NCBI RefSeq assembly: GCF_003585925.1
Contig: NZ_NRJH01000003.1
Coordinates: 1 to 64,000, forward strand
Origin: Psittacicella melopsittaci
GTDB lineage: Bacteria > Pseudomonadota > Gammaproteobacteria > Enterobacterales > Psittacicellaceae
Direction: 5' to 3'
Length of the DNA: 64,000 nt
Shown here: positions 2,550-62,717 of the stretch, piece by piece
Layout of the letters: each line of letters starts with the position of its first letter
How positions within the stretch are numbered: position 1 is the stretch's first letter
The notes under the pieces: model-generated
What the model saw: the letters and a program-made list of their open reading frames with translations, nothing else
Databases searched by the model: none
Told to the model about the DNA's origin: nothing
Translations under genes and position numbers: made by a program

Positions 2550-5500
2550 ATGAATAAAATTTTTAAACTCAAATTTAACCGCCAGACTAAGCAAATGAAT
2601 GCAGTTTCCGAAATTGCTACTAATGCTATTTCTGGGTCAGGTAACAATCTTAAACTCTCTACACGTCTAGCTAAATTAGCCAGCCTACTTCTTCCTCTAA
2701 CTTTTTCATTTGGCCAAGCTCTGGCACAAACTCCATTTCAAGTTGTTGCAGGAAATGCGAATTTAGTTACTAATGGTTTGGTGACCACCATTACCAATAG
2801 TAAAAATGCCATTCTCGAATGGGATAAATTCAACATTAATAGCAATGAATTAGTAAGATTTATCCAAGAAAGTTCTGACTCTGCGGTTTTAAACCGTGTG
2901 TTAGGCGGAAGTGTATCGCAAATTCTTGGTACTTTAGAATCAAACGGTAAAGTATTTATCGTAAACCCTGCAGGTATTGTTTTTGGGGAAAACTCTGTAG
3001 TTAATGTGCAGTCTTTAGTGGCATCGACCCTTGATATTAGCAACGAAGACTTTATCAACGGCAACTATGTGTTTAACCAAGGCAAAGACCAAGCTCTGGC
3101 TCAAGTTCTGAACCAAGGGGTTATTAAAGTAAACGATGATGGCACTCTAGCTCTGGTAGGGGGTCAAGTAGTAAATACAGGCGTTCTTGAAGCAAAAAAT
3201 GGTACTGTGTACTTACTGGCAGGTCAGTCAATTACCATTCAAGATTTAGATAACCCATTAATCTCTTATAAAGTAACGGCAGACAATAAAGCGGTTAACC
3301 TTGGGGAAATTGTTAGTAAAAAAGCAAGACTAGCAGCTAACCATGTGGCACATGGTTATACTACAGCAAAACCTTTTGCTGATCTTGTAGCAGGAGCTGA
3401 CTCAGCTAAAACTGCTACTATTAGTGCCCAAGGACATGTTACTCTCGATGGTGGGGATACAAGCCTTGTAAATGGTGCTATTGTTGCAGGACAAATTGAT
3501 GTTCTAGCAAATGGTGTAGTAGCTGTAGAAAGTAATGCTCACCTTAAAGCTAACCAACTGGTACGTATCGGTGGTGATGCTCTCGGTAAAGGCGAAGTTA
3601 AACTCGCAAGTAAAACTCTAGTGCAAGCAGGAGCTGTAGTTGACACTTCAGCAACTGGTGATGCTGGAGATATAGTTGTATGGGGAAATCAAGCTGCAGT
3701 AGCAGGTAAATTCCTTGCTACTTCAGAAACTGGTCAAGGTGGTCTGGTTGAAACCTCAGGGAAAGTAATTCGTCTGGATGGGGTAGATGTAGATACACGC
3801 AGTACTCTTGGTACCCAAGGGACTTGGTTAATTGACCCGCATGAGCTACAAGTTCTTAATAGCACTGCTTACGACAAAATCAAGGAAGAAAATTCGATTT
3901 TTGCCGAGTTTTATGACTTTGGGGATAGTGAAGACCTTAAATCTGGTTCATACACTGTTGCCCAAGACGAGTCAAAACTCTTCTCTTACTTAAAAGACGA
4001 TGATCTCACTGCTCAACTTAAACAAACCAATGTAGTTCTGCAGATTAACCCTGAAGCTGGTGTAGACTCAACCATTAAGTTTGATAATGCTAACGTTGAA
4101 GGGAATCATCTCTATGGTTTAACTTTACATGCTAATAATTTAGAGTTACAAGATACTAATATTTACGATTTAGCTTACTTTAACTTCACTAGTACAACTG
4201 GCGTACAAAGTAAAAATGCTAGATTTACCTCTTCAACTTTACTTGAAGTAAAAGAACTTAAAGTAGATGTAAACGCAAATATTACAAGTAGAAATTCAAC
4301 TTTTATTGTTGATAAAGTAGCACTAGTAGCAGCTAACCTCACTGCAAATGGCTCTCTATTTACCTTAAGTAGAGATACAGGTACTACTTCTACCCTAACG
4401 GTAAGCCAAGCTCTTATCCTCAATCAAACCACAGTAGATACAGGTGGCAGTCTTGTAACTAACGGTAAAGGGGCAGTAACTCTAACGCGTAACTCAAGAG
4501 TAGAGGCTCGTAGCCTTAAACTAGAGTCTGATGCTACAGTTAACTTACAAAACTCTATTCTTAATGCAACTGAAGGTAACCTTGAGCTTAAAGCTAACCA
4601 AGTGAGCTTAAACCAAGCTACCTTAAAAGCAGCAAATGGTAAGCTTGATCTACAAGCAACAACTGCTTTAACAAGTACTTGTTCAACTCTAACAGCAGGA
4701 CAAGCTGCGAGCTTAACTAGTACAGGTACTTTAACTCTTAATCAAGATACAATTGAAACCCCTGAGACTTTAACTATTACAGGGCAAGATAAAGTAACTC
4801 TAACTAATCCTGATTTAACAGTAGAAAAAGATATTTCTGTTAAATCTAGCCAAGGTAGTGTAACTGTAGAAAACCTAGAGTTAAACCCAGAAGCTGATCT
4901 AAACCTTGAAGCTAAAACTGACTTAAATGTTCGTGGATCTACGCTTCTAAGCATGAGCGATGATATTAATCTAACGGCAGCTAACCTAAAACTCGAAGGT
5001 TCGCATCTCACTCTATTTGCTGGAGCGTTAAATGTTTCAGCTACAGGTACAGCGACGTTAAAAGATAATACTATTACTCTTCTAGAAAACAATTTAAATC
5101 TAACTGGTACTAGCCAAGCAGAGTTAAGTAACAACTCTTTAAGTGCTAAAAACATAAATCTAGAAGCTGACAGCTTAACTAGTAAAAAAGACAGCTTTAC
5201 GGCAACGGATTTAAATGTAACGACAAAACAAGCATTTACGAGTCAAGATTCAAGTTATGCGATTAGAAACAATGCTAGTTTAACTTCTGAATTTAAGTTA
5301 ACTATTAGCAATACTGACTCGACTAAAGCTGTAAATGCTACTAATGCTTTAAGCGTTAAAGGTTATAACGTTGACCTTACTAATGCGAACCTAACTGCTA
5401 ATAACGGTCTTCTTAAAGTAGAAGGTACAGGTAGCATTAACCTTACCAAGGTTAATTTAAATGCCACAGCTGATGAGCTCCAAGTAGTAGGAGGAAAACT

Positions 5501-7997
5501 CACTGCTACTGACAGTGTTCTAAAAGCTAAAGATGATTTAACTTTAGCAACGAAAACTGCGATCCTAAATAACACTACCCTTGAATCACAAGCGAACCTA
5601 AATCTACGTGGTGACAGTGCTACGGCAGAGCAAGGAACAAGCTTTACAGGGGAAAATGTATATCTTGATACAAAAACTACTAAATTAGATGACGCAGATA
5701 TTAGTGCAACAGGTGAAGTAGCCTTCACTAATAAAGAAGCTGGGGCAAGCCTAACTCTTGAAGATACGGAAATTACCGCAACTGACGGTTTAAGATTTGC
5801 CTTAGATCAAGGTGAAGTAACCCTTGAAAAAGCACATCTTACAGTTTATCAAGGTGATCTTGATGTCAAAGCAAAAGACCTTAAAGTAGGTAGTACTACC
5901 GTAACTGCTTTTGCTGGTAACATCAACCTAGATACTGATACGGCTAATTTAAATGCTTTAACTACGTACACTAAAGAACTCGAAATTAATGCTAGTGAGC
6001 AATTAACGGTAGCAGGTTCTCAACTCAATGCTGAAAACGCACAAATTAGCACGGAAAACCTTAACCTGCAAGGCTCTACTATTTATTCTGATCTTGCACC
6101 TTTAGCGATAAATGCGACTACAGCAACACTAAATAATGCAAATCTCAGAAGTTATGGTAGTGCCGTTAACCTAAAATCTGACAGCTTAACTGCTGATCAG
6201 TTAAGTGTTACAGGTAGAGCTCTTAACCTTGATAAGGTTAACTCTGACAATACTCAAGCTCAACTAAGCCTTAGTCACACTAGTCTCGTTACCCAAGGGG
6301 AAACTAATATCAATCATGGTACAGTAAACCTTGAAGATATTAGTATCACTAGTAGAGATCTTGCGGTTAAAGCAACTGACCTCACAACCTCTGGTAGCAC
6401 TAATGTCTTTGCTCAAAATAGCGGAACAACTAGTATTGAGACTACAGGTGACCTCAAGTTAGCTAATACCTTTACTACTACTAAAGATCTCAGCTTAAAT
6501 GCAGGTAATGACCTGACTTTAGAAAATAACGTGCTCAATGCTCCACAAATTGAACTGGTAGCTACAAACGAAGTTAAAAGTGAAGGTTCAATCTTTGACG
6601 GAGATGGTTCAAGTAAACTAAGCATTAAAGCAGCAACTACTACTATTGCCTCTGGTGAAATTGATAACTTTGAGAATCTAGAAGTAGATGCAAAAGAAGT
6701 TAATCTAACTGGAAATAAACTACAACTTGATGCTATAACTATTACTGGTACTGAAACTACTCCAAATCTTTCAGGTAATGAAGGTGAAGTGAAAAACACT
6801 CCAACCATCAATGGTGAGAGAATTAGTGACGAAGAGTTAGCAAAATCTAACCCTACACTAGTTAACAAAGATGAAAATCCACCTGAAGAAACTAAACCAG
6901 TAGAGCCAGAACCAGAGCCGGAACCAGCTCCAGCTCCTGCGGAACCAGTTGAGCCTGCACCAGCAGATCCAACTACCCCAGGTACGGAACCTGCAACAGA
7001 TCCTAAAGATCCTGGTACTGGTGAGACTACAAATCCTTCTACTCCAGCGGATCCAGGTACAACACCAACAGATCCAAGCACAACTGAGCCTGTAGATCAA
7101 CCTACAGAACCAGGTGAGCAAGCAAAAGATCCAAGTGAAACTCAACCTACTGATCCTGTTGCAGAACCTAAAGAGCCAGTTGTAGATCCTGATCCAGCTC
7201 CTGTTGAGCCTGATCCAGTTGAAGAACCTGCTCCAGCTCCAGTAGATCCTAAAGATCCAGGTACTACAACTCCAACAGAACCAGGTACAAGTGAACCTGT
7301 AGAGCCTGCTCCTGTAGATCAACCTACAGAACCAGTTGAGCAACCTAAAGAACCAGGTGAAACTCAACCTACAGTTCCAGTTGAAGATCCTAAAGATCCA
7401 AGTGAAACTAAACCTGCTGAGCCTGTAGAACCTGAACCTACTACTCCAGTAGAACCAGCTCCAACTGAGCCAGTAGTACCTGCTCCAACTGATCCTGTAG
7501 ATCAACCTACTGATCCAGTTGAGCAACCAACAGATCCTGTTGAGCCAGTAGTTCCAACTCCTGTTCAGCCTGTTGAGCCTGCTCCAACTCCAGTTCAACC
7601 TGTAGAGCCAGCTCCGACTCCAGTTCAGCCTGCTCCAGTAGAACCAGGTGAAGGTCAACCAGGTTTAGATTTACCACCATTACCGGCAAACTTTGAAGCA
7701 CCAGATGCTTTCCGTGAGCCAAATCGTTACTGGTTTGTGCAAAGTAATGCAGATATACGTAACCTCAACCGTGGTTATGCTAACTTCTCACCAAATGCTC
7801 AAGACTTACCAGTAGCTCCATTAACCTTACCTACGCAAACAATTACTATTACAGGTAATTTAACTGCAACTCAGGTAATTGATCAAGTTTCTCGAGAACT
7901 TAATTTAGATCCTCGTACCCAAACGATCCAATCTTTATTAAGTAACCCTGATTTAACCTCAGAACAACGTCAATTACTTGAACAAGTAGGTCAATAA
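2550..7997 (+). CDS. Two-partner secretion adhesin, filamentous haemagglutinin-like (TpsA)
   Basis: An 1815-residue secreted adhesin. The N-terminus (MNKIFKLKFN...AVSEIA) is a typical extended signal peptide region, followed by a hydrophobic core ending near residue 60. Residues about 60-300 form the TPS secretion domain, with the NPAG signature (139-142) and the usual strand pattern. Residues about 430-1440 consist of degenerate beta-helix repeats rich in Asn, Thr and Leu. Residues about 1443-1703 are a Pro/Glu/Asp/Thr-rich repeat tail (EPVEP, DPTDP), and about 110 residues follow. Export would need an outer-membrane TpsB transporter; none is in the window. There is no good Shine-Dalgarno at the ATG. 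HMW-type adhesins of Haemophilus are the nearest concept. The binding target cannot be read from sequence. Confidence 0.88.
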   Translation: MNKIFKLKFNRQTKQMNAVSEIATNAISGSGNNLKLSTRLAKLASLLLPLTFSFGQALAQTPFQVVAGNANLVTNGLVTTITNSKNAILEWDKFNINSNELVRFIQESSDSAVLNRVLGGSVSQILGTLESNGKVFIVNPAGIVFGENSVVNVQSLVASTLDISNEDFINGNYVFNQGKDQALAQVLNQGVIKVNDDGTLALVGGQVVNTGVLEAKNGTVYLLAGQSITIQDLDNPLISYKVTADNKAVNLGEIVSKKARLAANHVAHGYTTAKPFADLVAGADSAKTATISAQGHVTLDGGDTSLVNGAIVAGQIDVLANGVVAVESNAHLKANQLVRIGGDALGKGEVKLASKTLVQAGAVVDTSATGDAGDIVVWGNQAAVAGKFLATSETGQGGLVETSGKVIRLDGVDVDTRSTLGTQGTWLIDPHELQVLNSTAYDKIKEENSIFAEFYDFGDSEDLKSGSYTVAQDESKLFSYLKDDDLTAQLKQTNVVLQINPEAGVDSTIKFDNANVEGNHLYGLTLHANNLELQDTNIYDLAYFNFTSTTGVQSKNARFTSSTLLEVKELKVDVNANITSRNSTFIVDKVALVAANLTANGSLFTLSRDTGTTSTLTVSQALILNQTTVDTGGSLVTNGKGAVTLTRNSRVEARSLKLESDATVNLQNSILNATEGNLELKANQVSLNQATLKAANGKLDLQATTALTSTCSTLTAGQAASLTSTGTLTLNQDTIETPETLTITGQDKVTLTNPDLTVEKDISVKSSQGSVTVENLELNPEADLNLEAKTDLNVRGSTLLSMSDDINLTAANLKLEGSHLTLFAGALNVSATGTATLKDNTITLLENNLNLTGTSQAELSNNSLSAKNINLEADSLTSKKDSFTATDLNVTTKQAFTSQDSSYAIRNNASLTSEFKLTISNTDSTKAVNATNALSVKGYNVDLTNANLTANNGLLKVEGTGSINLTKVNLNATADELQVVGGKLTATDSVLKAKDDLTLATKTAILNNTTLESQANLNLRGDSATAEQGTSFTGENVYLDTKTTKLDDADISATGEVAFTNKEAGASLTLEDTEITATDGLRFALDQGEVTLEKAHLTVYQGDLDVKAKDLKVGSTTVTAFAGNINLDTDTANLNALTTYTKELEINASEQLTVAGSQLNAENAQISTENLNLQGSTIYSDLAPLAINATTATLNNANLRSYGSAVNLKSDSLTADQLSVTGRALNLDKVNSDNTQAQLSLSHTSLVTQGETNINHGTVNLEDISITSRDLAVKATDLTTSGSTNVFAQNSGTTSIETTGDLKLANTFTTTKDLSLNAGNDLTLENNVLNAPQIELVATNEVKSEGSIFDGDGSSKLSIKAATTTIASGEIDNFENLEVDAKEVNLTGNKLQLDAITITGTETTPNLSGNEGEVKNTPTINGERISDEELAKSNPTLVNKDENPPEETKPVEPEPEPEPAPAPAEPVEPAPADPTTPGTEPATDPKDPGTGETTNPSTPADPGTTPTDPSTTEPVDQPTEPGEQAKDPSETQPTDPVAEPKEPVVDPDPAPVEPDPVEEPAPAPVDPKDPGTTTPTEPGTSEPVEPAPVDQPTEPVEQPKEPGETQPTVPVEDPKDPSETKPAEPVEPEPTTPVEPAPTEPVVPAPTDPVDQPTDPVEQPTDPVEPVVPTPVQPVEPAPTPVQPVEPAPTPVQPAPVEPGEGQPGLDLPPLPANFEAPDAFREPNRYWFVQSNADIRNLNRGYANFSPNAQDLPVAPLTLPTQTITITGNLTATQVIDQVSRELNLDPRTQTIQSLLSNPDLTSEQRQLLEQVGQ
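6880..7660 (+). repeat. Proline-rich coding repeats in the adhesin tail
   Basis: Short imperfect DNA repeats encode EP, DP, PVEP and PTDP units for about 260 residues. Such tails often span the cell wall or periplasm, or hold a passenger at the surface. The repeats make the region prone to length change by slippage. Confidence 0.8.
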
Positions 7998-46269: not shown

Positions 46270-46282
46270 GGCAATTTCTCGT

Positions 46283-47026
46283 CTATAAGTCTCCAAGTTG
46301 AGCTTGGAGAATCGCTAGGGCAGTAAGCCCAGCTGTTTCTGTCCGTAAAACGCGCGGTCCTAAATTGAAATCGGTAAAACCTACCTCGCTTGCTTGGGCA
46401 ATTTCTTGCTCGGATAAGCCACCTTCTGAGCCTATGAGCAGATTAATTTGCTCATACTCAGGAGCTATATTGCGTAAGCGTTGCCCCGCAAAAGGATTTA
46501 AATTAACATAGAGGCACTTATCCTGAGGTTTTACTTGGGCAAAGTACTCTTTTATGCTAATGGCTGGATTTAAACGAGGAATGCTATCGCGATAACTCTG
46601 CAAACAAGCAGCAACGATAATTGCTTGCCAGTGTGCCATTTTTTTAGCGAGGCGTTCGCCGCTCAGGCTTACCCCACAACGCTCGGTAAAAATAGGGGTA
46701 ATTTCTTTTACCCCTAATTCTACTGCTTTTTGGATAGTAAGATCCATGCGATCACCACGGGAAATACCTTGAATTAAATGCAAATGTAGAGGCGACTCAT
46801 TGTTTGCCACCACATATTCATGCAGTTCTACTTGGGCAGATTTTTTTGCCACATTAACTAGAGTACCCACATAGTGACCACCCGAGCCATCAACAACATG
46901 AATTTGTTCGCCGTCAGTTAAACGTAACACTTTGCATAGATGCTGAAAAGAATCATCGCTCAAGGTTAAAGTATAAGGTAGGCTTACTTCAAGCACTTGC
47001 GGGTGATAGGTACGATATAAACGCAT
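46283..47026 (-). CDS. rsmE: 16S rRNA m3U1498 methyltransferase RsmE
   Basis: 247 residues, SPOUT-class dimeric enzyme. The N-terminal PUA-like domain has the RxYH start (MRLYRTYH). The C-terminal knot carries the AdoMet motifs IGSEGGLSEQE and NLGPRVLRTETA. It methylates N3 of U1498 on assembled 30S subunits. It starts 3 bases after thiI ends and is directly followed by giant gene A. Confidence 0.95.
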   Translation of the reverse strand: MRLYRTYHPQVLEVSLPYTLTLSDDSFQHLCKVLRLTDGEQIHVVDGSGGHYVGTLVNVAKKSAQVELHEYVVANNESPLHLHLIQGISRGDRMDLTIQKAVELGVKEITPIFTERCGVSLSGERLAKKMAHWQAIIVAACLQSYRDSIPRLNPAISIKEYFAQVKPQDKCLYVNLNPFAGQRLRNIAPEYEQINLLIGSEGGLSEQEIAQASEVGFTDFNLGPRVLRTETAGLTALAILQAQLGDL

Positions 47027-51418: not shown

Positions 51419-54400
51419 ATGTCGAAACAATCTTTACCGCGCTTAAAAGTCTTTGTTTTACATGGGCAAAACTCTTTAACTGACCTAAAAGAGTTATTAA
51501 ATGCCAATACTATTCAAAGTCTTGATTTTAAGCAAGCCTATACTTACCGTGGGATAGAGAACATTCGCTTCCATAGTATGCCGTTTGTTTTTGAACTCGG
51601 GGTAGATAATTATCCGCAAATAGTGGAATTTAACTTTATTGCCAGCAATGCCTTTCCCTCACAATTGCTTGACTATCAATTAGTGCAGGGCGGTCCGTTT
51701 GGTAAAGAGGCAACTCGTAAAGTAATTCCTTTTGCCCAATTAGCAAGTTCAACCTATAACCTGAGCCTCTATCGTCTGGTATATGACAACCTCTACCAAA
51801 ATGTGCCAGCAAGTTTAATGCCAACCTATGAGAGTTTGCCTTTACCTGTAAAATATGACGCTCTTCCTGCTCTGGTTGCTAAACCTTATCGTGTTTCTTT
51901 TTACCATACCGAGTTAAATAATCTATTTGATCCTAACTCTTATAGCTCGAGCCTTAAGGGTATGGCACCGCGCGAAAGACGTTGGCAACACGACAATAAA
52001 TACCATAATCCAGGTAATCCGCCAGAAAAGGGTGATATTTTCGCGGCATATATGGAGTTAGCGCGCAAGAAAAATACTATTGAGCCCCCATTTTACTTTG
52101 GGGACGCTGTTTCTTATGCCATTTATCAGCGCTTTATTACTAACCCGATTGCCAAAAATATCCAGGATCCTGTAAAAGTTCTCTATCACCTGCGTCCTAA
52201 CCAAACTCAAGAGGACTTAGTGACGGTGTATCAACGCAGTGAAACTAAGTTCAGACACCATAATCGCGTGGAAAAAATGGTCAATGACTATATTATTGGT
52301 GCTGTAAAAAACAACCTCAAATACTGGTCGGTAGATGACCTTTCTGAGTTTTTACGCGATAAAGCTCCGCTGGTTGAGGATATGACAGGTATGGATCCTA
52401 AACTCAGTAAAGAGTTTAAAGCTGCTGACTTACCTTGGTTAGGAACCTATGAGCGTACTGCCTTTGCTGTCGACTATGAAAACACTGGGGGTGTAAAATC
52501 TCTGTCTCGAGCTTATGGCGAGCGTTTAACTTACAGTACAACGCCAATTAATCTCGCTCTGAGTGACGCGAGTTTTGCGAAAAAACTTACGAGCCAAGAA
52601 AAAGAAAAGTTCCCTGGTTTTGCGCACGCGGCTAAAGAGTATCTCCAGCTTTACTATCAGCAAAAAATTACCTTACAGACGGCATCTGACAAGATTTTTA
52701 ATGATCTCAATCTAGCTAACGCCTTTGCTCTAAAACAAGGTGGGGAATTACGCTTTAATGCGAGCCTTAAACTGCCAGAACCTGCTTTAGAGCGAGCAAA
52801 AAGTGTCGCTCCTTATTTAACTCCGCGTCCGTTTTATGGTAAAGATGTCTTAAAAGATCTCGACTCTTATCTTTACTTTATGGAACTGGCACACCTAGAG
52901 CAAGAGCCAATTGCTCCTGCTAAAGAGCCAATTAACTTTAAGCGCACCGCAAACTTACCACGAGCTTTAGTGGATTTTGCTCCTTTTACTAATTATGTCA
53001 CTACCCAAATTAGCCAAATTGGCATTCGCTATGCTTATTTAGATCTGCTTGATCTCGTCCTTAAAAAAGTAAACACTCCGCTTACGTTTAGACAACTAGG
53101 CAGAGGCTTTAAACATGCAAGCAAACTAATTCAAGGTTTTTGGGCAAGAAGAGGCAATAGCCTTGAAGAGCGTCAAGTAGCTCAAGCTTATCAAGAAGCT
53201 TTAATTGGCGAAGAGCAACGTACGCGTTTACAACAGCTAGTGAACCTGAGTCAGTATAGCCATTTTCTTACTTGGGCAAATCAGTTTGGTCCAATAGGTA
53301 AATATGACCTCGACCCAGCCTTATTAGCAAAACGCAGTAAAGACTTTACTCTGGGCATTATGCTTGAGTCTAACTATGACTCAAGTAAGGATATGTACAA
53401 GCAGTTTAGTAAAGGCTTTTATCTCCTCAACCCTGCAACCTTTGCCGTAACTTCGCGTTTATTTGGGGAGTACAATTATCCAGGCTTTACTAACTATAAT
53501 GCGGCCTACTATAACCCGTATGAGCCTATGCTCATTACAGGTAGTGCTCGCCTGCGTCTGCGTCTCGAGCAGTATAAGGCAATGCAAGAAGACTTACGTC
53601 TGACCCCTTTAAATATTCCTGCTTATTTAGAAGAGCCAAGACAACTGGCTTATGAGCAAATTATTTACCGCAGTGCTTTAGCAAATATTTTCTTAGCTCG
53701 CGAGTACAAGCAAAGCTTTAGTCCAATGAGTAGCAATAACCTTGCGACCATAAGTGCACGCTTAAATCCGCACTTAGCTCCAGAGCAACGTCTGCAAGTG
53801 AGCTTGAGCCCGCTCGTTAATCAGGATCCGGCTGACTTCCCTTATGCTTATCAAGAGCCTGAGTTTGTCGCTCAGACGCAACGCCCTATGGAGCTGGTTG
53901 AGCTTAAAAAGCAAAAAGATGCTTCTTACCCAGTACGCAAACTGCAAGTGAGCACTCAAGATCCAACCGTAGCTGCGGTAATGCAGGAAATCGAACACGA
54001 GTATCAAGCGCAAATTAAACGCAATAAAATTAGTTACCTCGAAGAACCTGAGCGCATGCTTGAGTCTTTTGCCAGTGAAGAGGCTATTCTCAAGGCTCCA
54101 TTACAAGCTTGGATGCAAATGTTCCCGCAATTAATTTGGCGTTATAACACTGCCAAAGAATACTTTAAAGCAGGAGGCAAGGGCTTTGGGGCACTAGGTA
54201 ATGTTTACTATCACTTAAGTACGAACACTCTACCTTCGTTAGAGTACCCAAATCTTGCTGATAAGTTCAAGCAATACTTTGCATTTGCTCACAACCAAAT
54301 TCGTGGCGTAGGTCTAGGTTTACCACCGCGTAAGAGCTATGAGAATATTCTCATGAAAGCCCTGTATAACCGCGTTTACTATATTATGGAAAATGTGGAT

Positions 54401-57400
54401 CTCTACTTAATGCGTCCACAAAACCTAACCTACTTTGTTAGTCTGGGACTCGATAGCTTTAGTCGCGGCAAATACAATCGTAAAGAAAACCAACTCTATC
54501 TTGATGTTTTTGCTCAAGAAGTTAAACTACAAAAAGCAAGTAACTTCAAAGCTAAAACTCTGGGGCAAGCTTCGCTTAGCCTTGCCAAAAGACAAAAAAC
54601 CAAGGTTGGGCAAGTATTTGCTGACTTTAGTTCGCCAGCTGAGTTACAAAATAGCTATAACTTACCAACCACGCGTTGGCAATATATTGCTAGTGCTACA
54701 CTGGATCCGCAAGTTTATACCTATGATGCTGATCCTGCGGTGAACATGCTTCGCTTCCGCAATAACACTAATTTATTTGCCTATGACGAACAGCCGTTAA
54801 TGCGTAATGCTTCGGATGTGTTTGCTAACTATGTGCATTTAAATGAGTTCTATGAGCGTCTCCGTTTAGATCTCACGGTGACTAACAGTGTGTTTATTGC
54901 GAGCAAGGCAGCTGCCGATGGCTTTTTCACTACTCTAGCTCAAGAGCTCGAAGACAAATTAAGCTTTATGAGCGAGCATCTGCGCAAGGCTTTATTAATT
55001 CCAGCCTTAAACGAACGCAGTGCTTTATATGCCCAACAAGATACACACCTTTTTGTGGTGCCTATTCCAATTGAGCATAAACCAACTCTATTAGAGCAAG
55101 ATTTAGAAAGCTATCAACAAAAATGGCGTCATAATCTCCAAGCGCAAGACTTTGAGCAAGCAAGAGAACAAGCCCAAAAACAAGGGCAAATTTTACCTTA
55201 CCCAGTAGATCCAACGAGTTTAGAACTCTGGTTCGTTTATCAGCTCTTTGGCGATCGCTTAGACTTTATTAACTCTAAACTAGATCGCATTAACCTCGCT
55301 CTTTACTTAAAAGCTCTTGAACCTGCGGTTAAAGTAGCCTATGACCTCAGTGAGGCACAGCTCCAAGATTATAAAGTCCCTCTTAGTCAAATGCTTACTT
55401 ACTTTAATCCAGGGGAAAACCTCGAAGAGCTCTTTAAGCGTTTAACTAAGTTTAGTCAAACTGAACTCGCTGATTTTGTGAAAAAGGCTCGTCTGTTAGT
55501 GCGACCTCAACACAAAACTCGACGCCCTACAGGCAAACTAGCATGGTTAAATCAGTTAACTAGCAGTGGGGTGCCAGATAACCTCGAGCAACTGGTGCAA
55601 CAACTGAGCACCAAACAACTAGAGCAGGCTCTTGATTATATTGCCCAACTTGATGGGCAACTTCTCTGGTTAGCTAACCTTAACCTAGAGCAAGAGCCAA
55701 GCACCTATGCCTTTGCCGTAGACACAGTTAATGCCTTTAGTGCTTATTTACCTAGCGGGGTGCGCTTGGCTCCAAGTGCAAGCTATGCCCTTGAATCTAT
55801 CGCTCAGGCGCAAGATCCAGCTTATGTAGGCAATAAAAACCTCAAACTGGCAAGCTTAGAACAATTTGCTCAAAGCAAAGAGCCTCTGCTCTGGCAAAGC
55901 CTAGAAAAATTCTTTGCCCAAGAAAAGGAACTGCTTGAAAGTGCAAGATACCAACTGCAATTGTCACTAACTCAGGGGGTATTTACTCCAGGTAAGGGCA
56001 CCAGTGCCTACTGTGTGCGTTGGTTAAAAGCCTTAGTGCAACATCTGAACCTTAAAGCCCAAACTGGTCTAGCCTGTCGTTTTCTTTCGACTCATCCAAG
56101 CCGTGTCTTTGCTTCGAGCTTGGCAATGCTCTATCCTGAGTTTGGTTATAGAGGCGATGATGCTATTGCCGAAGGGATCTTTAGTCGTTTTTACATTGCT
56201 GGACAAGCGACTGCTCCACAGCTAGTGCCTACTTTAGCAGGCGAGCTTGACTTAAATAGCCCAGCTGCTCCATTGCTTTACCTCTGGCAGCAAGCTGGTC
56301 TAAGCCGAGCTCAACTCGAAGAAGTGCTCGCAACAGATCCAGAAACTGCAAAATTGTTAGAGCAAGCTCCAAGCAATGGCTTTAATGCCAACTTTAAAGC
56401 TTACCTCTACTTTACTATTTTGCCTCAGCTCTTAAATACGCCAGTATTTAACCTCGAGCAAATGCAAAAACAACTTGATAAAGTAGTTAAAGCTTTAGAG
56501 CAAGAAACTAATTTAGCTCCTTGGCATGCTTTAGAGTACACGCCAATTGATTTATTCTATAAATCTTTTGCTAAATACTTTAGTAGCTTAGCTCCTTACT
56601 TAAGTAAAGACAAAGAGCCAAGCAAGCAATTAGGTCTGCACCTCGAGCAAACCCTGGATAATCTGTATCATCAAGGCAAACTCGAGTTAGGTCGTCAAGG
56701 TGATGCCCATATAGATCCTAATCGCGAACTTGGCGTGCGTTATGATGTGCTCTTAAGTCAGCACCTGAATAATACTTTCTTTAACCTAACCTATGCTTAT
56801 GCTACTTATAACCCGGAAGAGCTAGCTAAACGTGCAAGTACAGCATTGCTCGACCCTGAGTATCACTTATTTAAAGGTACGCCTGCCATTGTCCATGCTT
56901 TCCATAAAGACTATGACAATGATGTAGACGAACAAGATAAGCTCCAACTCAATTTAAGTGTGCTTAAGTATAAAGAAGACCCTATGTACAAACAGGCGCG
57001 TCGTATTCACTATCAATATAACGAGTACCTGAAAAACAAACACTTGGCTCCATTTATCCCTCTCTATCTCCCACTTGCGAGTATAGAGAATCAGGTAATC
57101 CAAGTTGACCCAAGTGTACCAGGTCTTCTTAGCGCTCCACAAATTGCTCAACTGCAAAAAGGTTGGTATAAAACTCTGCCATACTTTTTTGAAGGGAAAA
57201 AACGTAACGCCGATCCACGCGTGTTCGATTTAACCTATGTAGCTAACTACAACTGGCAACAAGTGGGCAGTGTTTGGGATCTATTCCTCAGTAAAAACCC
57301 AGGCAAGGATCTCTATAGCCTGCAACAGCTGTACCTTGCTCATGCCTTTAGTGAGCGTGAAGTAGCTCGTAATCTGGTGACCCTGCGTCTGCAAGATAAA

Positions 57401-58831
57401 GTGCCACAAGCTCTTTATTTACCAGCTCGTCCTTTACACTTACTTTATGCTACGAGCGAAGAAAGTACTTATTTAGGCAAACAAAGTCATGAACTTTTAG
57501 CTACCTTTAGGGCTCATGCCCAAATCTTGCAACAAAAACTTTTCAATGCCTTAATGCGTCAGTATCATGTATTGGAAAAACTGCAAGATCTGCCAAGAGT
57601 AGCCAAAGGACAAATAACCTTGCCGTTTGAGTCGCTAAATACTTGGCGTACAACCATCACCAAAACGCCATTCTATTCGGCGCGTTTAGAATCTGAGCTC
57701 TTAAATAAATTCTTAGCTGAGTTTGTTTGTGAGCATGGCATGGATAATATCGAAGCGGAAAAAGCTTTAGATAACTTTATTCTGCAAACTAAAGTGTATC
57801 GCTCTTTACCAGAAAAACGTGAACAAACTGTCCTCAAGTACTACCATGAAGCAGGACTTGATTATGTTCTCAATGCCCAAGCTCCACGAGATGTAAATTT
57901 TGAGCAAGAGTTAAATCTGCACCAATACGGCGTAAGCCGCATTCGTAATAACCCAGAAAAACTCTTTGCTGATGCTCTACTCCGTAAATGGGCAATTGCT
58001 GATCGCAAACGTGTTCCACTCGACGAAGAGCAACTCTTTGCCGATACTGATTTTGAGGCACTTGAGCGCAATCACCTCGCAGCTCTAAATTACCCTAGCT
58101 CAGAGCAACAAGAGTTCTCTTTTGCTCCAGTTAAAGAATTAGAGCCTACGCTAGGTTGGCAAGAGCTTACTACTGCAACTTTTACTGCTTTAGAACTGCT
58201 CTATAAAGACTTTTATATCACCTATCCAAGGTTAAGTGCTTCACAAGCTAAAGCCCAAAGCTTAAGCCCAGTAGCACCAGCTAGTTATGATTTAAGAGCT
58301 TTACAAGAGGCTTTTGCAAGTAAAGAAAAAGTAACGCACCAGCTTATAGCTCGCATTTTAGGCATTAAGCCTAACTGGAAGTTTAAAGCGGGAGATTACA
58401 ACTTTAAAGCACGTTGTGAGCAACTGGCACAAGTGTTAATGCATACTTTAGTAAGGGTTAACCAAGCTTCGGCACAGCCGTTACATCTCGCAGATCTTTG
58501 CCAACTCTTTGTCAACACCTATCGCGTGTTTATGCAAGTCAAAGTAATGGTAATTGCAGATCAACGCTTACTCGAAGCAACCACGGCAATGAATCCTGAA
58601 CTTTTAGATTCACCTTATGTGTATGTTCTCAATAACACCTCAAGTTTCCAAACTTGGGCAGAGCAACATCCACAAGTATCAGTGATCTTTGCAAGTCAGA
58701 ATAAGTCACAAACTATAGCCCATATCTGTAATACTTTTGCTCAGGCACAACAGATAAGCCTAATGCAATTAGAAGAAACAGAATGGTATCCATACTTCCA
58801 AGCTTTAGTTAAAGCTTATACATATAAATAA
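51419..58831 (+). CDS. Giant protein of unknown function (B)
   Basis: 2470 residues, no signal peptide and no clear membrane segment, so presumably cytoplasmic. Mostly helical and rich in Leu, Tyr, Gln, Ala and Lys. The last ~120 residues look like a small alpha/beta domain (VKVMVIADQRLL, SPYVYVLNN, VSVIFASQNKS), possibly a Rossmann or Toprim-type fold, but no catalytic signature is secure. The rest matches nothing I know. It carries many near-repeated words (EQARE, QLxxL), but not strict repeats. It follows the LpxH gene and ends in a terminator. It is similar in size and composition to giant gene A, on the other side of the divergent region. Confidence 0.7.
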   Translation: MSKQSLPRLKVFVLHGQNSLTDLKELLNANTIQSLDFKQAYTYRGIENIRFHSMPFVFELGVDNYPQIVEFNFIASNAFPSQLLDYQLVQGGPFGKEATRKVIPFAQLASSTYNLSLYRLVYDNLYQNVPASLMPTYESLPLPVKYDALPALVAKPYRVSFYHTELNNLFDPNSYSSSLKGMAPRERRWQHDNKYHNPGNPPEKGDIFAAYMELARKKNTIEPPFYFGDAVSYAIYQRFITNPIAKNIQDPVKVLYHLRPNQTQEDLVTVYQRSETKFRHHNRVEKMVNDYIIGAVKNNLKYWSVDDLSEFLRDKAPLVEDMTGMDPKLSKEFKAADLPWLGTYERTAFAVDYENTGGVKSLSRAYGERLTYSTTPINLALSDASFAKKLTSQEKEKFPGFAHAAKEYLQLYYQQKITLQTASDKIFNDLNLANAFALKQGGELRFNASLKLPEPALERAKSVAPYLTPRPFYGKDVLKDLDSYLYFMELAHLEQEPIAPAKEPINFKRTANLPRALVDFAPFTNYVTTQISQIGIRYAYLDLLDLVLKKVNTPLTFRQLGRGFKHASKLIQGFWARRGNSLEERQVAQAYQEALIGEEQRTRLQQLVNLSQYSHFLTWANQFGPIGKYDLDPALLAKRSKDFTLGIMLESNYDSSKDMYKQFSKGFYLLNPATFAVTSRLFGEYNYPGFTNYNAAYYNPYEPMLITGSARLRLRLEQYKAMQEDLRLTPLNIPAYLEEPRQLAYEQIIYRSALANIFLAREYKQSFSPMSSNNLATISARLNPHLAPEQRLQVSLSPLVNQDPADFPYAYQEPEFVAQTQRPMELVELKKQKDASYPVRKLQVSTQDPTVAAVMQEIEHEYQAQIKRNKISYLEEPERMLESFASEEAILKAPLQAWMQMFPQLIWRYNTAKEYFKAGGKGFGALGNVYYHLSTNTLPSLEYPNLADKFKQYFAFAHNQIRGVGLGLPPRKSYENILMKALYNRVYYIMENVDLYLMRPQNLTYFVSLGLDSFSRGKYNRKENQLYLDVFAQEVKLQKASNFKAKTLGQASLSLAKRQKTKVGQVFADFSSPAELQNSYNLPTTRWQYIASATLDPQVYTYDADPAVNMLRFRNNTNLFAYDEQPLMRNASDVFANYVHLNEFYERLRLDLTVTNSVFIASKAAADGFFTTLAQELEDKLSFMSEHLRKALLIPALNERSALYAQQDTHLFVVPIPIEHKPTLLEQDLESYQQKWRHNLQAQDFEQAREQAQKQGQILPYPVDPTSLELWFVYQLFGDRLDFINSKLDRINLALYLKALEPAVKVAYDLSEAQLQDYKVPLSQMLTYFNPGENLEELFKRLTKFSQTELADFVKKARLLVRPQHKTRRPTGKLAWLNQLTSSGVPDNLEQLVQQLSTKQLEQALDYIAQLDGQLLWLANLNLEQEPSTYAFAVDTVNAFSAYLPSGVRLAPSASYALESIAQAQDPAYVGNKNLKLASLEQFAQSKEPLLWQSLEKFFAQEKELLESARYQLQLSLTQGVFTPGKGTSAYCVRWLKALVQHLNLKAQTGLACRFLSTHPSRVFASSLAMLYPEFGYRGDDAIAEGIFSRFYIAGQATAPQLVPTLAGELDLNSPAAPLLYLWQQAGLSRAQLEEVLATDPETAKLLEQAPSNGFNANFKAYLYFTILPQLLNTPVFNLEQMQKQLDKVVKALEQETNLAPWHALEYTPIDLFYKSFAKYFSSLAPYLSKDKEPSKQLGLHLEQTLDNLYHQGKLELGRQGDAHIDPNRELGVRYDVLLSQHLNNTFFNLTYAYATYNPEELAKRASTALLDPEYHLFKGTPAIVHAFHKDYDNDVDEQDKLQLNLSVLKYKEDPMYKQARRIHYQYNEYLKNKHLAPFIPLYLPLASIENQVIQVDPSVPGLLSAPQIAQLQKGWYKTLPYFFEGKKRNADPRVFDLTYVANYNWQQVGSVWDLFLSKNPGKDLYSLQQLYLAHAFSEREVARNLVTLRLQDKVPQALYLPARPLHLLYATSEESTYLGKQSHELLATFRAHAQILQQKLFNALMRQYHVLEKLQDLPRVAKGQITLPFESLNTWRTTITKTPFYSARLESELLNKFLAEFVCEHGMDNIEAEKALDNFILQTKVYRSLPEKREQTVLKYYHEAGLDYVLNAQAPRDVNFEQELNLHQYGVSRIRNNPEKLFADALLRKWAIADRKRVPLDEEQLFADTDFEALERNHLAALNYPSSEQQEFSFAPVKELEPTLGWQELTTATFTALELLYKDFYITYPRLSASQAKAQSLSPVAPASYDLRALQEAFASKEKVTHQLIARILGIKPNWKFKAGDYNFKARCEQLAQVLMHTLVRVNQASAQPLHLADLCQLFVNTYRVFMQVKVMVIADQRLLEATTAMNPELLDSPYVYVLNNTSSFQTWAEQHPQVSVIFASQNKSQTIAHICNTFAQAQQISLMQLEETEWYPYFQALVKAYTYK

Positions 58832-59492: not shown

Positions 59493-60333
59493 TTCTTATT
59501 TATTTGGTGGTCGAGCTTTGCACTTATGCATTTTAATTCTAAGTTACGTTCTTCATATAGGCAAAGGACTAATTACTAAAATATTTTTTCCTTGAAAATA
59601 TTTTTTTAAACTTTATATCATAGTTAACAAATCAAGCCACACAAGATTCTCGAGAGACCAAGGGAATTATGATGAAGAAAGTTAAGGTCTGCCAAACTTA
59701 TACTTTCACTTGTAATTTTTAATCTGCCAATAAAAATTATTACGCCTTTAATATTTTCTGCCAAAAATATTAATTCAATTCATTGTAAAGAATTTGCTTA
59801 ATCGGATCTTGAGTTATATAAAGTTTTTTATAAAGTTGTTCGCAAATTATAAAAATCACTATAAACAAATACATTTCTATATTTATCTATATTAAGTTAT
59901 ATGCAAGTTCTTCTTGCTCTTCGCAAATTTTTTTACATTTGCCTATTGGTATATATTATCTAACACGATAATCTTTTGTTTCATAGTTAAAACTTAATTA
60001 CATGACTGCCAACATGTAACTAAGGATCTTTATAGATTTACGAATCAGTTTTACAAATAGTTTTATATAACTACCTGAAATGATCATCCAAGTAGTTTGA
60101 GAGTCTACTTCATTAAACAACCTGCCAATCTGTTTAAACTTTTAGCTGCCAACTAAAAGAGGATGAAAGTTTTAATGATTTGTAAATCTTATTCATATTC
60201 AAATCTGTTTTTTATTTTAACCACTAGAGAAGCCAACTCGAAAAAGGTAATACCTGCCTATATTGATTACCTTGTGGTTAAAACAAAAGTTATGCTGAGA
60301 ACTTAAAAAGACATCTTTTTAAGTTCTTTTTTT
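59493..60333 (+). ncRNA. Large RNA with repeated CUGCCAA-loop hairpins
   Basis: About 840 bases without a protein gene. Six hairpins carry CTGCCAA in the apical loop: stems 59677-59686/59697-59707, 59714-59721/59731-59738, 59749-59757/59764-59772, 59998-60004/60013-60019, 60113-60119/60131-60137 and 60139-60145/60153-60159. A seventh (60244-60251/60266-60273) has CTGCCTA and sits inside a 10-bp closing helix (60215-60224/60274-60283). The stems differ in sequence while the loop is constant, which is the signature of selection on the loop. Between 59773 and 59990 lie other hairpins without the motif. A strong terminator ends the unit. By analogy with CsrB or RsmZ it could titrate a loop-binding protein, but the loop is not GGA. 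Confidence 0.65.
60298..60333 (+). terminator. Terminator of the CUGCCAA-loop RNA
   Basis: A 14-bp stem (60298-60311 with 60314-60327, arm AGAACTTAAAAAGA) followed by seven Ts. It fixes the direction of the RNA as plus. Confidence 0.9.
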
Positions 60334-60374
60334 ATGTCTGTATTTTAGTTGATCACTAATTTAAATAATTAACC
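60327..60374. repeat. 47-bp direct repeat, right copy
   Basis: Begins in the T-run of the terminator and ends at TAATTAACC. Partner of 58998-59044. Confidence 0.85.
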
Positions 60375-60660
60375 TTACTTTTTTTTCTTTTATTATTCGG
60401 TATTACCTTCTTGGTTCTTTTGTTTTATTACTTTTTCCCTTATCTTCCTCTATCTATTCTCTACTTCCTATTTGCCTATACTCTCTATCTTTTACTTTCT
60501 TCTTGCTCTTCTTTATTTACCTATACTCGCAATCTCTTTACTATTCTTTTCTCTTCTTATTACTTATTGTCCTTATATAATTTTTAACTTTCTTTTTAAC
60601 TTGTATGCTTTTTAATTTCACGTAATCGTTGGTAAGATGTATTAAGTGTTTTGATGAGCT
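60375..60660. other. Pyrimidine-rich spacer
   Basis: T/C-rich low-complexity sequence with words such as TCTTTTACTTTCTTC. No gene or structure found. Confidence 0.6.
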
Positions 60661-60683
60661 AGGGGTTGCTTAAGGTGGGAATA

Positions 60684-60830
60684 GAGATTTAACTAGATTA
60701 GGGATTAGTACTTTAACAAGATTAAGGATAGAGCTTGAGCGAGGTATAGGAATGTAGCTTTAACGAGGTCTGGGATTATAGCTTTAGAACAAAGCTGAAG
60801 ATTGGAGCTTTAGAGCAAGATGAGGGATAG
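60684..60830. repeat. Degenerate 24-bp tandem repeat, six units
   Basis: Units with consensus AGCTTTAACnAGnTnnGGGATT begin near 60684, 60709, 60732, 60756, 60780 and 60806. Noncoding. It resembles the 22-23-bp array at 49.5 kb in period but not in sequence. Confidence 0.65.
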
Positions 60831-60867: not shown

Positions 60868-60896
60868 TTGAAAGATAAGATGAGTTTTTTTACATA
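60868..60896 (+). promoter_or_regulatory. Promoter of the UGGUUAG-loop RNA
   Basis: TTGAAA (60868-60873) and TACATA (60891-60896) with 17-base spacing. A start near 60903 falls at the first hairpin of the RNA. Confidence 0.5.
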
Positions 60897-60902
60897 AAGC
60901 AA

Positions 60903-61285
60903 AAACCCATCCTAGATGATCTACCTAGTGATGGGTTTTAACCGTTGCCTAAGCGACAACAAAAACAGTCTGAACTCATATATTAATCCTTTGATTAGTT
61001 GGTTAAACTAGTTTGGACTAAAGGATTGTGGTTATTTTTTGGTTTTTGTCAATTTATGTTTATGAGGTTGGTTTTTTTCTATAGGCTAGTTCCTGTTAGA
61101 TTAATTTGTTTGAAGTTTTTAGTTTGTAGTTAGTGTCCTTGGTAGGGACAGTGTTTTCTCTTTAAGCTGGTTAGACTCTTAGAAGAAAACGGGAAAAAAG
61201 AAGAGGATCTTGGTTAGGGATCAGTCTTTTTTCAAAGGGATATATTATTTGTTTGTATAAAGTAATTGGTTAGATTACTTTTTTA
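60903..61285 (+). ncRNA. Structured RNA with UGGUUAG-type hairpin loops
   Basis: Starts with hairpin AAAACCCATC/GATGGGTTTT (about 60905-60937). Then a helix AATCCTTT/AAAGGATT (60985-60992 with 61020-61027) encloses an inner stem (60993-60999 with 61007-61013) with loop TGGTTAA. Further loops: TTGGTAG (61139-61145, stem TGTCC/GGACA), CTGGTTAG (61167-61174, weak stem TAAG/CTTA), TTGGTTAG (61210-61217, stem GATC/GATC) and TGGTTAG (61267-61273, 7-bp stem AAGTAAT/ATTACTT). The last hairpin is followed by a T-run and may be the terminator. No reading frame. Confidence 0.5.
61259..61285 (+). terminator. Probable terminator of the UGGUUAG-loop RNA
   Basis: A 7-bp stem (61260-61266 with 61274-61280) with loop TGGTTAG and a T-run. 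The stem is AT-rich, so termination may be incomplete. Confidence 0.6.
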
Positions 61286-61322
61286 TTCTCATTTAACTAA
61301 CAGTTAATGTTTTGTTAAACAG

Positions 61323-61395
61323 AAACTACTTTTGTAACCTACTGCTTTAGATTGAGCGATGTTTTTGGTTTAACAGCATGTTGCAAAGGTAGTTT
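61323..61395. ncRNA. Long hairpin downstream of the UGGUUAG RNA
   Basis: A 16-bp stem with two G-U pairs (61323-61338 with 61380-61395, AAACTAC...GTAGTTT) encloses 41 bases. It may be a 3' extension of the preceding RNA or its own element. The G-U pairs favour the plus strand as the folded one. Confidence 0.4.
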
Positions 61396-62062
61396 TGTTT
61401 TATTTCTCGATTTATGTTTATATTTTAGCCTAAAAAGAAATCTTTTTGCAAAGGTTACCATTTGGTTACTGCTTGAGACTATTTTTACAAAATCGTAAAT
61501 TTTTTACATTTTTGTTCTCAAGCTTTATATAAGTTATTGATAATTAAGCAGTACACTTTTTAATTAGTGATAGGCAAAGACTATCACTATTTGAAATATA
61601 TCCACATAACTAAGTCAAGAATATAGGTTTTTTCTTCATTTTTTCTTAAAAATTTAGCTACAAAAATGCAATTTTGAGGCTAAAAAATACTTTTTTTAGA
61701 AATAATTGCTCTATTTTACCCCTTTTGGGCTGAAAAAAATTTATTGATCAGTAAAAAATAAATAATATATTAGTAAAATGTAAGGGTATTATTACTATTT
61801 TTCTTAATTATCAATAAAAAGAAAAACTAACTTTTGCTAAAAAAAGTTAAAATTAATTTTATTTGCTTAAAAAAATATGGCTAAAATCTGCAATTTTTAT
61901 TATAAATTGCAATTTTAGCCATTTTCTCTTAAAATTTTTCTCCCTAATATTCAATAAGTTAAATTTTTAGGAAATTTTAGTTTTTTTTTACTTGTTAGGT
62001 TTTAATTTATTTGCTTGTTTACTTTCTCGTTTTTCCCCTTATCTCAAGCAAATCATTTTTTA
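61396..62062. other. AT-rich gap with isolated hairpins
   Basis: Holds AGTGATAG/CTATCACT (near 61567-61590), TTAGC/GCTAA around 61656-61686, and a near-perfect 18-bp hairpin at 61878-61921 (outer TGGCTAAAAT, inner TGCAATTT, one bulged C). A single DnaA-like box ATATCCACA lies near 61600. No gene. Confidence 0.5.
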
Positions 62063-62411: not shown

Positions 62412-62717
62412 CTATTCAGTTGATGACAGAGCTAACACCACTAAAGAACTTACAAGAATTATAGCAGTGATCAAGCCACCCACTCCACGGGTAACACTTT
62501 TAACTATTGCTGAGTTGGTTAAAGTAGTTAAGCGGAGACGACGTCTTGGAGCTGGATGTACATCTTCAAAAGAGTCTAGAGCTAAGCGACCATGTGTATT
62601 GGTAGAAAACTCATGTTCATATTTTTCATCATCGATCGCTTCATCATAAGTTAACTCTGGTTCAGAATATTTAACCTTGCGAGGATCTGTTGAGGAAAAT
62701 CTTCTATCTAGCGTCAT
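62412..62717 (-). CDS. Small tail-anchored membrane protein of unknown function
   Basis: 101 residues. A polar, acidic N-terminal part (EPELTYDEAIDDEKYEHEF), then a basic stretch (RRRLRL), then one C-terminal membrane helix (about 79-97, GLITAIILVSSLVVLAL). A textbook TAAGGAGG is placed 5-6 bases before the ATG, which makes this a real gene despite its size. A hairpin (62729-62734 with 62742-62747) ends directly beside the Shine-Dalgarno and could affect access. It is the only protein gene in about 5 kb and sits in a transcript otherwise made of hairpins. No family recognised. Confidence 0.72.
   Translation of the reverse strand: MTLDRRFSSTDPRKVKYSEPELTYDEAIDDEKYEHEFSTNTHGRLALDSFEDVHPAPRRRLRLTTLTNSAIVKSVTRGVGGLITAIILVSSLVVLALSSTE

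Follow-up and report, generated by a model that had tools for sequence, protein, structure and literature searches.

A Psittacicella locus with repeated TGGTTA-loop hairpins: most likely a regulatory RNA gene, facing a putative repressor RNA of TpsA adhesins

The segment at 60903-61285 of the window (the whole 64,000-nucleotide stretch of DNA analysed here) is most likely part of a Psittacicella-specific regulatory RNA gene, which we call RNA2. As predicted from its signals, RNA2 would carry a series of hairpins that are perfectly paired and have CUAACCA(A) loops; a 13-codon Cys-rich open reading frame and an intrinsic terminator would follow. Convergent with it is a second gene, RNA1, whose product most likely represses the family of giant TpsA adhesins. 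We regard the two as regulatory RNAs that act without Hfq and present identical kissing loops in arrays, a reading that is well supported at the sequence level for RNA1 and is extended by analogy to RNA2. The whole model, i.e., a minus-strand RNA2 array with a micro-ORF and a facing RNA1 that represses tpsA, both acting via kissing loops, seems to us evenly poised between right and wrong.

The five hairpins with TGGTT(A)-type loops that the earlier note had described are all present (Table 1). TGGTTA occurs five times in the region, against 0.37 expected from dinucleotide shuffles; counted only where it falls in a loop closed by a stem of 5 bp or longer (60903-61285), it occurs five times against 0.16 expected, a value equalled by none of 5000 dinucleotide shuffles. 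Since the motif was picked post hoc, with the sequence already seen, its recurrence in relatives is the decisive support. The wholly unbiased test on the commonest 6-mer, which is blunted by T-runs, gave more than five copies in about 4% of shuffles and exactly five in a further 3%. The segment as a whole folds modestly better than shuffles (z -2.5), and the hairpin at 61259-61281 reaches z -4.65. There are almost no wobble pairs in the stems on either strand.

The four genomes (G000-G003) of Psittacicella, a genus associated with birds, were compared, the G002 homologue being that of P. gerlachiana. All four have the RNA2 locus, which blastn and covariance models detected in each of the three relatives; it is more diverged in G003, where both RNAs are present and their order is unchanged. 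The locus has four TGGTTAG-type hairpins in G002 and at least six in G001, and the observation of a constant loop on differing stems is borne out, as the same loops stand there on unrelated stems. At the site of the 61259-61281 hairpin the stem is wholly changed yet kept in G002 (AAAGUAAU/AUUACUUU in the window versus AACGUAAA/UUUACGUU) and partly kept in G001; the loop of the 61161-61183 hairpin (AGCTGGTTAGACTC) is identical in G002, on another stem. The relatives also show two RNA genes, each with its own repeated loop, as had been proposed. Three genomes have these genes side by side, with about 110 nt between them in G002; in the fourth, G001, a 2-kb transporter gene lies in between. The stretch separating them in the window includes a purine-rich part with diverged direct repeats of about 30 nt (60640-60830), which is unconserved in the relatives. 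Close to RNA2, both here (62412-62717, minus strand) and in G002, lies a gene for a protein of 101 aa that has a hydrophobic segment at its C terminus and no Pfam match.

Outside the genus, the R1 model gave matches among 295 genomes of the order with E values from 7.6e-5 to 1e-2; we rejected them as homologues, since they resemble ordinary terminators and carry no ORF. The window has no match in Rfam 15 at the gathering score, and permissive thresholds yield nothing but weak matches at chance level. No similar sequence was found in the phage and plasmid collections, and the conserved pattern has no match in viral contigs; a pattern scan of genome contigs returned one Psittacicella match and one apparent chance match in Nanopelagicus. 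Going by their titles, none of the three papers found to mention Psittacicella deals with its RNAs.

The strand, promoter and terminator of the first reading, which had placed the RNA on the plus strand, are probably wrong. The TTGAAA-17-TACATA promoter named there does exist (60868-60873 and 60891-60896); it is not conserved in the relatives and is probably not the right promoter. The terminal hairpin described as a perfect 7-bp stem with a T-run is also present and is followed by T6, though the stem has 8 bp and the T-run is specific to the window (TTTATTC in G002, TTTCTTGG in G001). On the minus strand, the Shine-Dalgarno site, the start of the 13-codon ORF, its TAA and the terminator are kept in all four genomes. 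A promoter of the form TTGSMA-18-TAAAAT stands at the homologous place in the window, G001 and G002, reading TTGGCA-18-TAAAAT in the latter two and being the best-scoring scan match in each; the candidate in G003 is not clearly homologous. The GTAACC repeat upstream of the promoter, direct in the window and G002 and inverted in G001, is possibly a response-regulator box.

The structure at 60902-60939, initially taken for a 5' hairpin, is better read as a minus-strand terminator after the 13-codon ORF; the T-tract beyond it is better on this strand. The corresponding terminator in G003 was picked up by the terminator scan. Wobble pairs valid solely on the minus strand occur in the G003 terminator stem and in the ORF hairpins of the window and G003 (one each). 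Those of the loop hairpins are balanced and leave the strand undecided, and the folding energy of whole strands is uninformative in this respect. Because the Shine-Dalgarno site, ORF and terminator are shared by four genomes and the minus promoter by three, while the plus-strand signals are unconserved, RNA2 is most likely a minus-strand RNA of about 520 nt. We hold the minus strand to be quite probable; its loops would then read CUAACCA.

The RNA had also been called noncoding, and the ORF with its Shine-Dalgarno site in 4/4 genomes speaks against this. This ORF and the minus promoter together argue that RNA2 is not purely noncoding and that its loops are most likely CUAACCA. By its predicted ORF signals (Shine-Dalgarno site, start and stop, kept in relatives), RNA2 is a candidate small mRNA or dual-function sRNA. 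No other gene start in this genome resembles that of the micro-ORF (M.SDC). Dual-function sRNAs of the SgrS type combine a regulatory RNA with a short ORF; here the Cys-rich ORF of 13 codons is at the extreme 3' end, with the hairpin array upstream.

Table 1. Coordinates of the predicted features (window positions, except for csrA)
Feature	Position	Strand	Remarks
RNA2, predicted transcript of ~520 nt with CUAACCA-loop hairpins	60900..61416	-	start inferred from promoter; homologous loci 4/4
Predicted RNA2 promoter TTGCAA-18-TAAAAT	61422..61451	-	promoter scan and alignment, 3 genomes
Direct repeat GTAACC...GTAACC, just upstream of -35	61453..61470	-	alignment
Hairpin AAAGUAAU[CUAACCA]AUUACUUU	61259-61281	-	plus reading AAAGTAAT[TGGTTAG]ATTACTTT; 8 bp, then T6
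Hairpin, loop CCUAACCAA (UUGGUUAGG on plus)	61206-61222	-	plus reading GATC[TTGGTTAGG]GATC
Hairpin, loop AGUCUAACCAG (CUGGUUAGACU on plus)	~61161-61183	-	plus reading TTTAAG[CTGGTTAGACT]CTTAGA
Hairpin UGUCC[CUACCAA]GGACA	61134-61150	-	plus reading TGTCC[TTGGTAG]GGACA
Hairpin, UAACC/GGUUA loop	60993-61013	-	plus reading GATTAGTT[GGTTA]AACTAGTT
Shine-Dalgarno AAAGGA of the small ORF	60987..60992	-	4/4 genomes, 7-8 nt from ATG
13-codon Cys-rich ORF MSSDCFCCRLGNG*	60938..60979	-	relatives: MNSDCNCCLNDNC, MQNDCDCCCLSNC, MCSDCTGSGCSHC
RNA2 intrinsic terminator	60894..60939	-	fold with ORF hairpin -29.7 kcal/mol, z -4.15
RNA1, convergent neighbour RNA of ~700 nt, CUGCCAA-loop hairpins	59628..60335	+	start inferred from promoter
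Predicted RNA1 promoter TTGAAA-18-TATCAT	59592..59621	+	scan; homologous match in G003
RNA1 conserved core, antisense to tpsA start (AUGAAUAAGAUUUACAAA = MNKIYK)	60178..60203	+	sequence comparison
RNA1 intrinsic terminator	60297..60335	+	terminator scan
tpsA-type adhesin, predicted RNA1 target	2550..7997	+	ESPR PF13018 and TPS PF05860
tpsA leader hairpin UUAUUCUU[UUGGCAG]AAGAAUAA	2508..2530	+	loop complementary to RNA1 loops
csrA	L040:1797-1979, L041:64-249, L042:1453-1611, L043:1628-1792	-, -, +, +	follows alaS, as in E. coli

RNA1 ends in terminator hairpins of unrelated sequence, followed by T-runs, in all four genomes (the scan finds those of the window, G002 and G003). In its loops, again on stems no shorter than 5 bp, TGCCA occurs five times (0.13 expected from shuffles); the G001 loops are AUGCCAG/CUGCCAC. 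TpsA adhesins begin with AUGAAUAARAUUUACAAA, to which the conserved core of RNA1 is the reverse complement, and when the core was compared with 655 gene starts, the four best duplex energies all belonged to tpsA genes. In G002 the duplex of core and tpsA start comprises 31 pairs, 20 and 11 of them flanking one mismatch.

TpsA-type adhesins give 10-18 matches per genome in G000-G003, with open frames of up to about 10,000 aa (e.g., G000:C89:5032 and 2550-7997 of the window). An unbiased survey of hairpin loops over 1.26 Mb, which excluded the two RNAs themselves, ranked TTGGCA/TGGCAG first. UGGCA hairpin loops occur in 8 of 23 tpsA leaders versus 12 of 617 other genes (P=7e-8) and in 4 of 186 intergenic leaders; 15 of the 23 tpsA leaders are without a detected UGGCA hairpin. 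TGGCA tops the 320 5-mers in tpsA leader loops, and its complement TGCCA is found in one leader versus eight, so the signal is strand-specific and indicates RNA rather than DNA. The duplex of CUGCCAA with UUGGCAG is worth -9.4 kcal/mol. Two other long ORFs of the window, at 51419-58831 and 39505-46296 (2470 and 2263 aa), have no Pfam match; the former has relatives of 38-48% identity in two congeners. A further apparent cluster of UGGCA hairpins was discarded as an unrelated AT-rich repeat: it belongs to a tandem repeat (unit 47 nt) that contains TTTTGGCAAAGATATC palindromes and precedes VirB-like genes (L225:9376-9595).

RNA1 thus displays the features of a trans-acting antisense sRNA, namely conserved complementarity to target starts and repeated seed loops matching target leaders. 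The loop match and the start complementarity together suggest that RNA1 most likely kisses the leader loops of tpsA and masks the start. Specifically, its loops would contact the UUGGCAG hairpin loops of the leaders, and its core would pair with the start codon and the first ESPR codons, resulting in repression. Read on its minus strand, RNA1 looks equally like a tpsA leader and start and may thus be a mimic or a decoy. The repeated loops could also have no function in RNA and represent DNA-level palindromes or AT-rich noise; the nearly wobble-free stems on both strands are what DNA palindromes would give, yet the shuffles, together with the conservation across all four genomes, exclude chance, and the eight-to-one strand bias in tpsA leaders points away from DNA. 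We judge this explanation very unlikely.

As a model for RNA1 we take LhrC1-5 of Listeria monocytogenes: these sRNAs repress translation of an adhesin mRNA through redundant copies of a binding site, three per RNA, and bind the target independently of Hfq (PMC4132741). LhrC is a multicopy RNA whose sites are CU-rich and have no sequence relation to those of RNA1, which has six to eight loops and an additional antisense core directed against a whole gene family.

The two neighbours could also be connected directly, with a plus-strand RNA2 acting as a sponge whose UUGGU(U)AG loops pair with the CUGCCAA loops of RNA1. The loops are near-complementary (CUGCCAA with UUGGUAG, -7.4 kcal/mol) and the genes adjoin in three of four genomes; however, for UUGGUUAG, the common loop, the pairing with CUGCCAA is poor (-4.3 kcal/mol), and for this reason we rejected RNA1-RNA2 kissing as the main function. 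Moreover, no RNA2 loop is a perfect UUGGCAG, although selection could have reached it by one or two changes, and the transporter gene of G001 splits the pair. A sponge is, in our opinion, improbable.

None of the four genomes gave an Hfq match, and ProQ was detected in two, the more complete ones (G000:C40 and G001:C94), which fits an Hfq-free, loop-based pairing. CsrA of the four genomes scores 25-37 bits, where most of the order reaches about 90; in all four I replaces R44, a residue critical to CsrA-RNA binding (PMC7652899). CsrB (RF00018) is unmatched in G000, G002 and G003 and gives two weak matches below the cut-off in G001 (E 0.15 and 0.5); the cut-off was reached by 5 of 21 genomes searched. 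RNA2 might be a plus-strand decoy replacing CsrB/CsrC, with its UUGGU(U)AG loops, the minus reading of RNA1 and the UUGGCAG loops of tpsA leaders all bound by one protein, plausibly the diverged CsrA. The deviating CsrA, the lack of an above-cut-off CsrB match in the genus and the likeness of UUGGCAG, UUGGUAG and UUGGUUAG in plus orientation speak for this. CsrB/CsrC/RsmZ resemble the present pair in being arrays of small hairpins in which a single loop is conserved and the stems vary, with two such RNAs per genome. On the other hand, the repeated GGA typical of Csr/Rsm loops is absent (the loops are UGGUUAG/CUAACCA and UGCCA); further differences from those RNAs are the missing critical arginine of CsrA and the minus-strand ORF at the end of RNA2. 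The terminators at the facing ends, the ORF with its Shine-Dalgarno site and the conserved minus promoter favour convergent transcription; no conserved divergent promoters were seen, and the gap in G002 is only about 110 nt. We consider the decoy unlikely.

Finally, the loops could mimic parts of tRNA and titrate a tRNA-binding enzyme. CUGCCAA is identical to an anticodon loop of tRNA-Gly(GCC), and UUGGUUAG to a D-loop. The loops range in size from 5 to 13 nt, which makes this mimicry unlikely; the G001 loops of RNA1 are unlike a real anticodon loop, and RNA1 is better explained by the match to tpsA leaders. We can hardly credit this proposal.

We therefore return to RNA2 as a minus-strand RNA. 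Since the tpsA signal concerns RNA1, the function of RNA2 is proposed by analogy: it may be a second multivalent base-pairing RNA working like RNA1, in which a single kissing loop is repeated many times and Hfq is dispensed with, and its micro-peptide would perhaps provide a second function. Its partner would carry UUGGUUAG, for which the duplex with CUAACCAA amounts to -8.3 kcal/mol. No leader family with UUGGUUAG loops was found in the 1.26 Mb sampled, which is about 55% of the 2.29-Mb genome, and the comparison of RNA2 blocks with gene starts on both strands remained at noise level throughout. One weak RNA2-block match falls at L149:350-550, possibly another structured RNA, which has a terminator (CTCTAGAGACTGTCTAGAGGTTTTTTT). 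The sequences themselves show the hairpin arrays and their conservation, the ORF, the signals for promoters and terminators, and the complementarity between RNA1 and tpsA; transcription, the strand of the RNA2 hairpins, repression and the mode of action of RNA2 are what we infer from them.

A broader proposal, which we offer as a tentative and rather doubtful one, is that Psittacicella lost Hfq and the classical CsrA/CsrB control and uses convergent array RNAs instead, one silencing the TpsA family through multivalent kissing of loops and through masking of the ESPR start codons that its members share, and the other being a dual-function RNA with a Cys-rich 13-aa peptide and a loop code of its own. 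If this is true, a signal-peptide code common to an adhesin family would be read by one RNA, and 10-18 giant surface proteins would be under a single regulator. Repeating one kissing loop many times, on stems that are free to drift, would then be a route to Hfq-free regulation, and a gammaproteobacterium without Hfq, whose CsrA lacks a key RNA-binding residue, would be a natural test of how such circuits are rebuilt.
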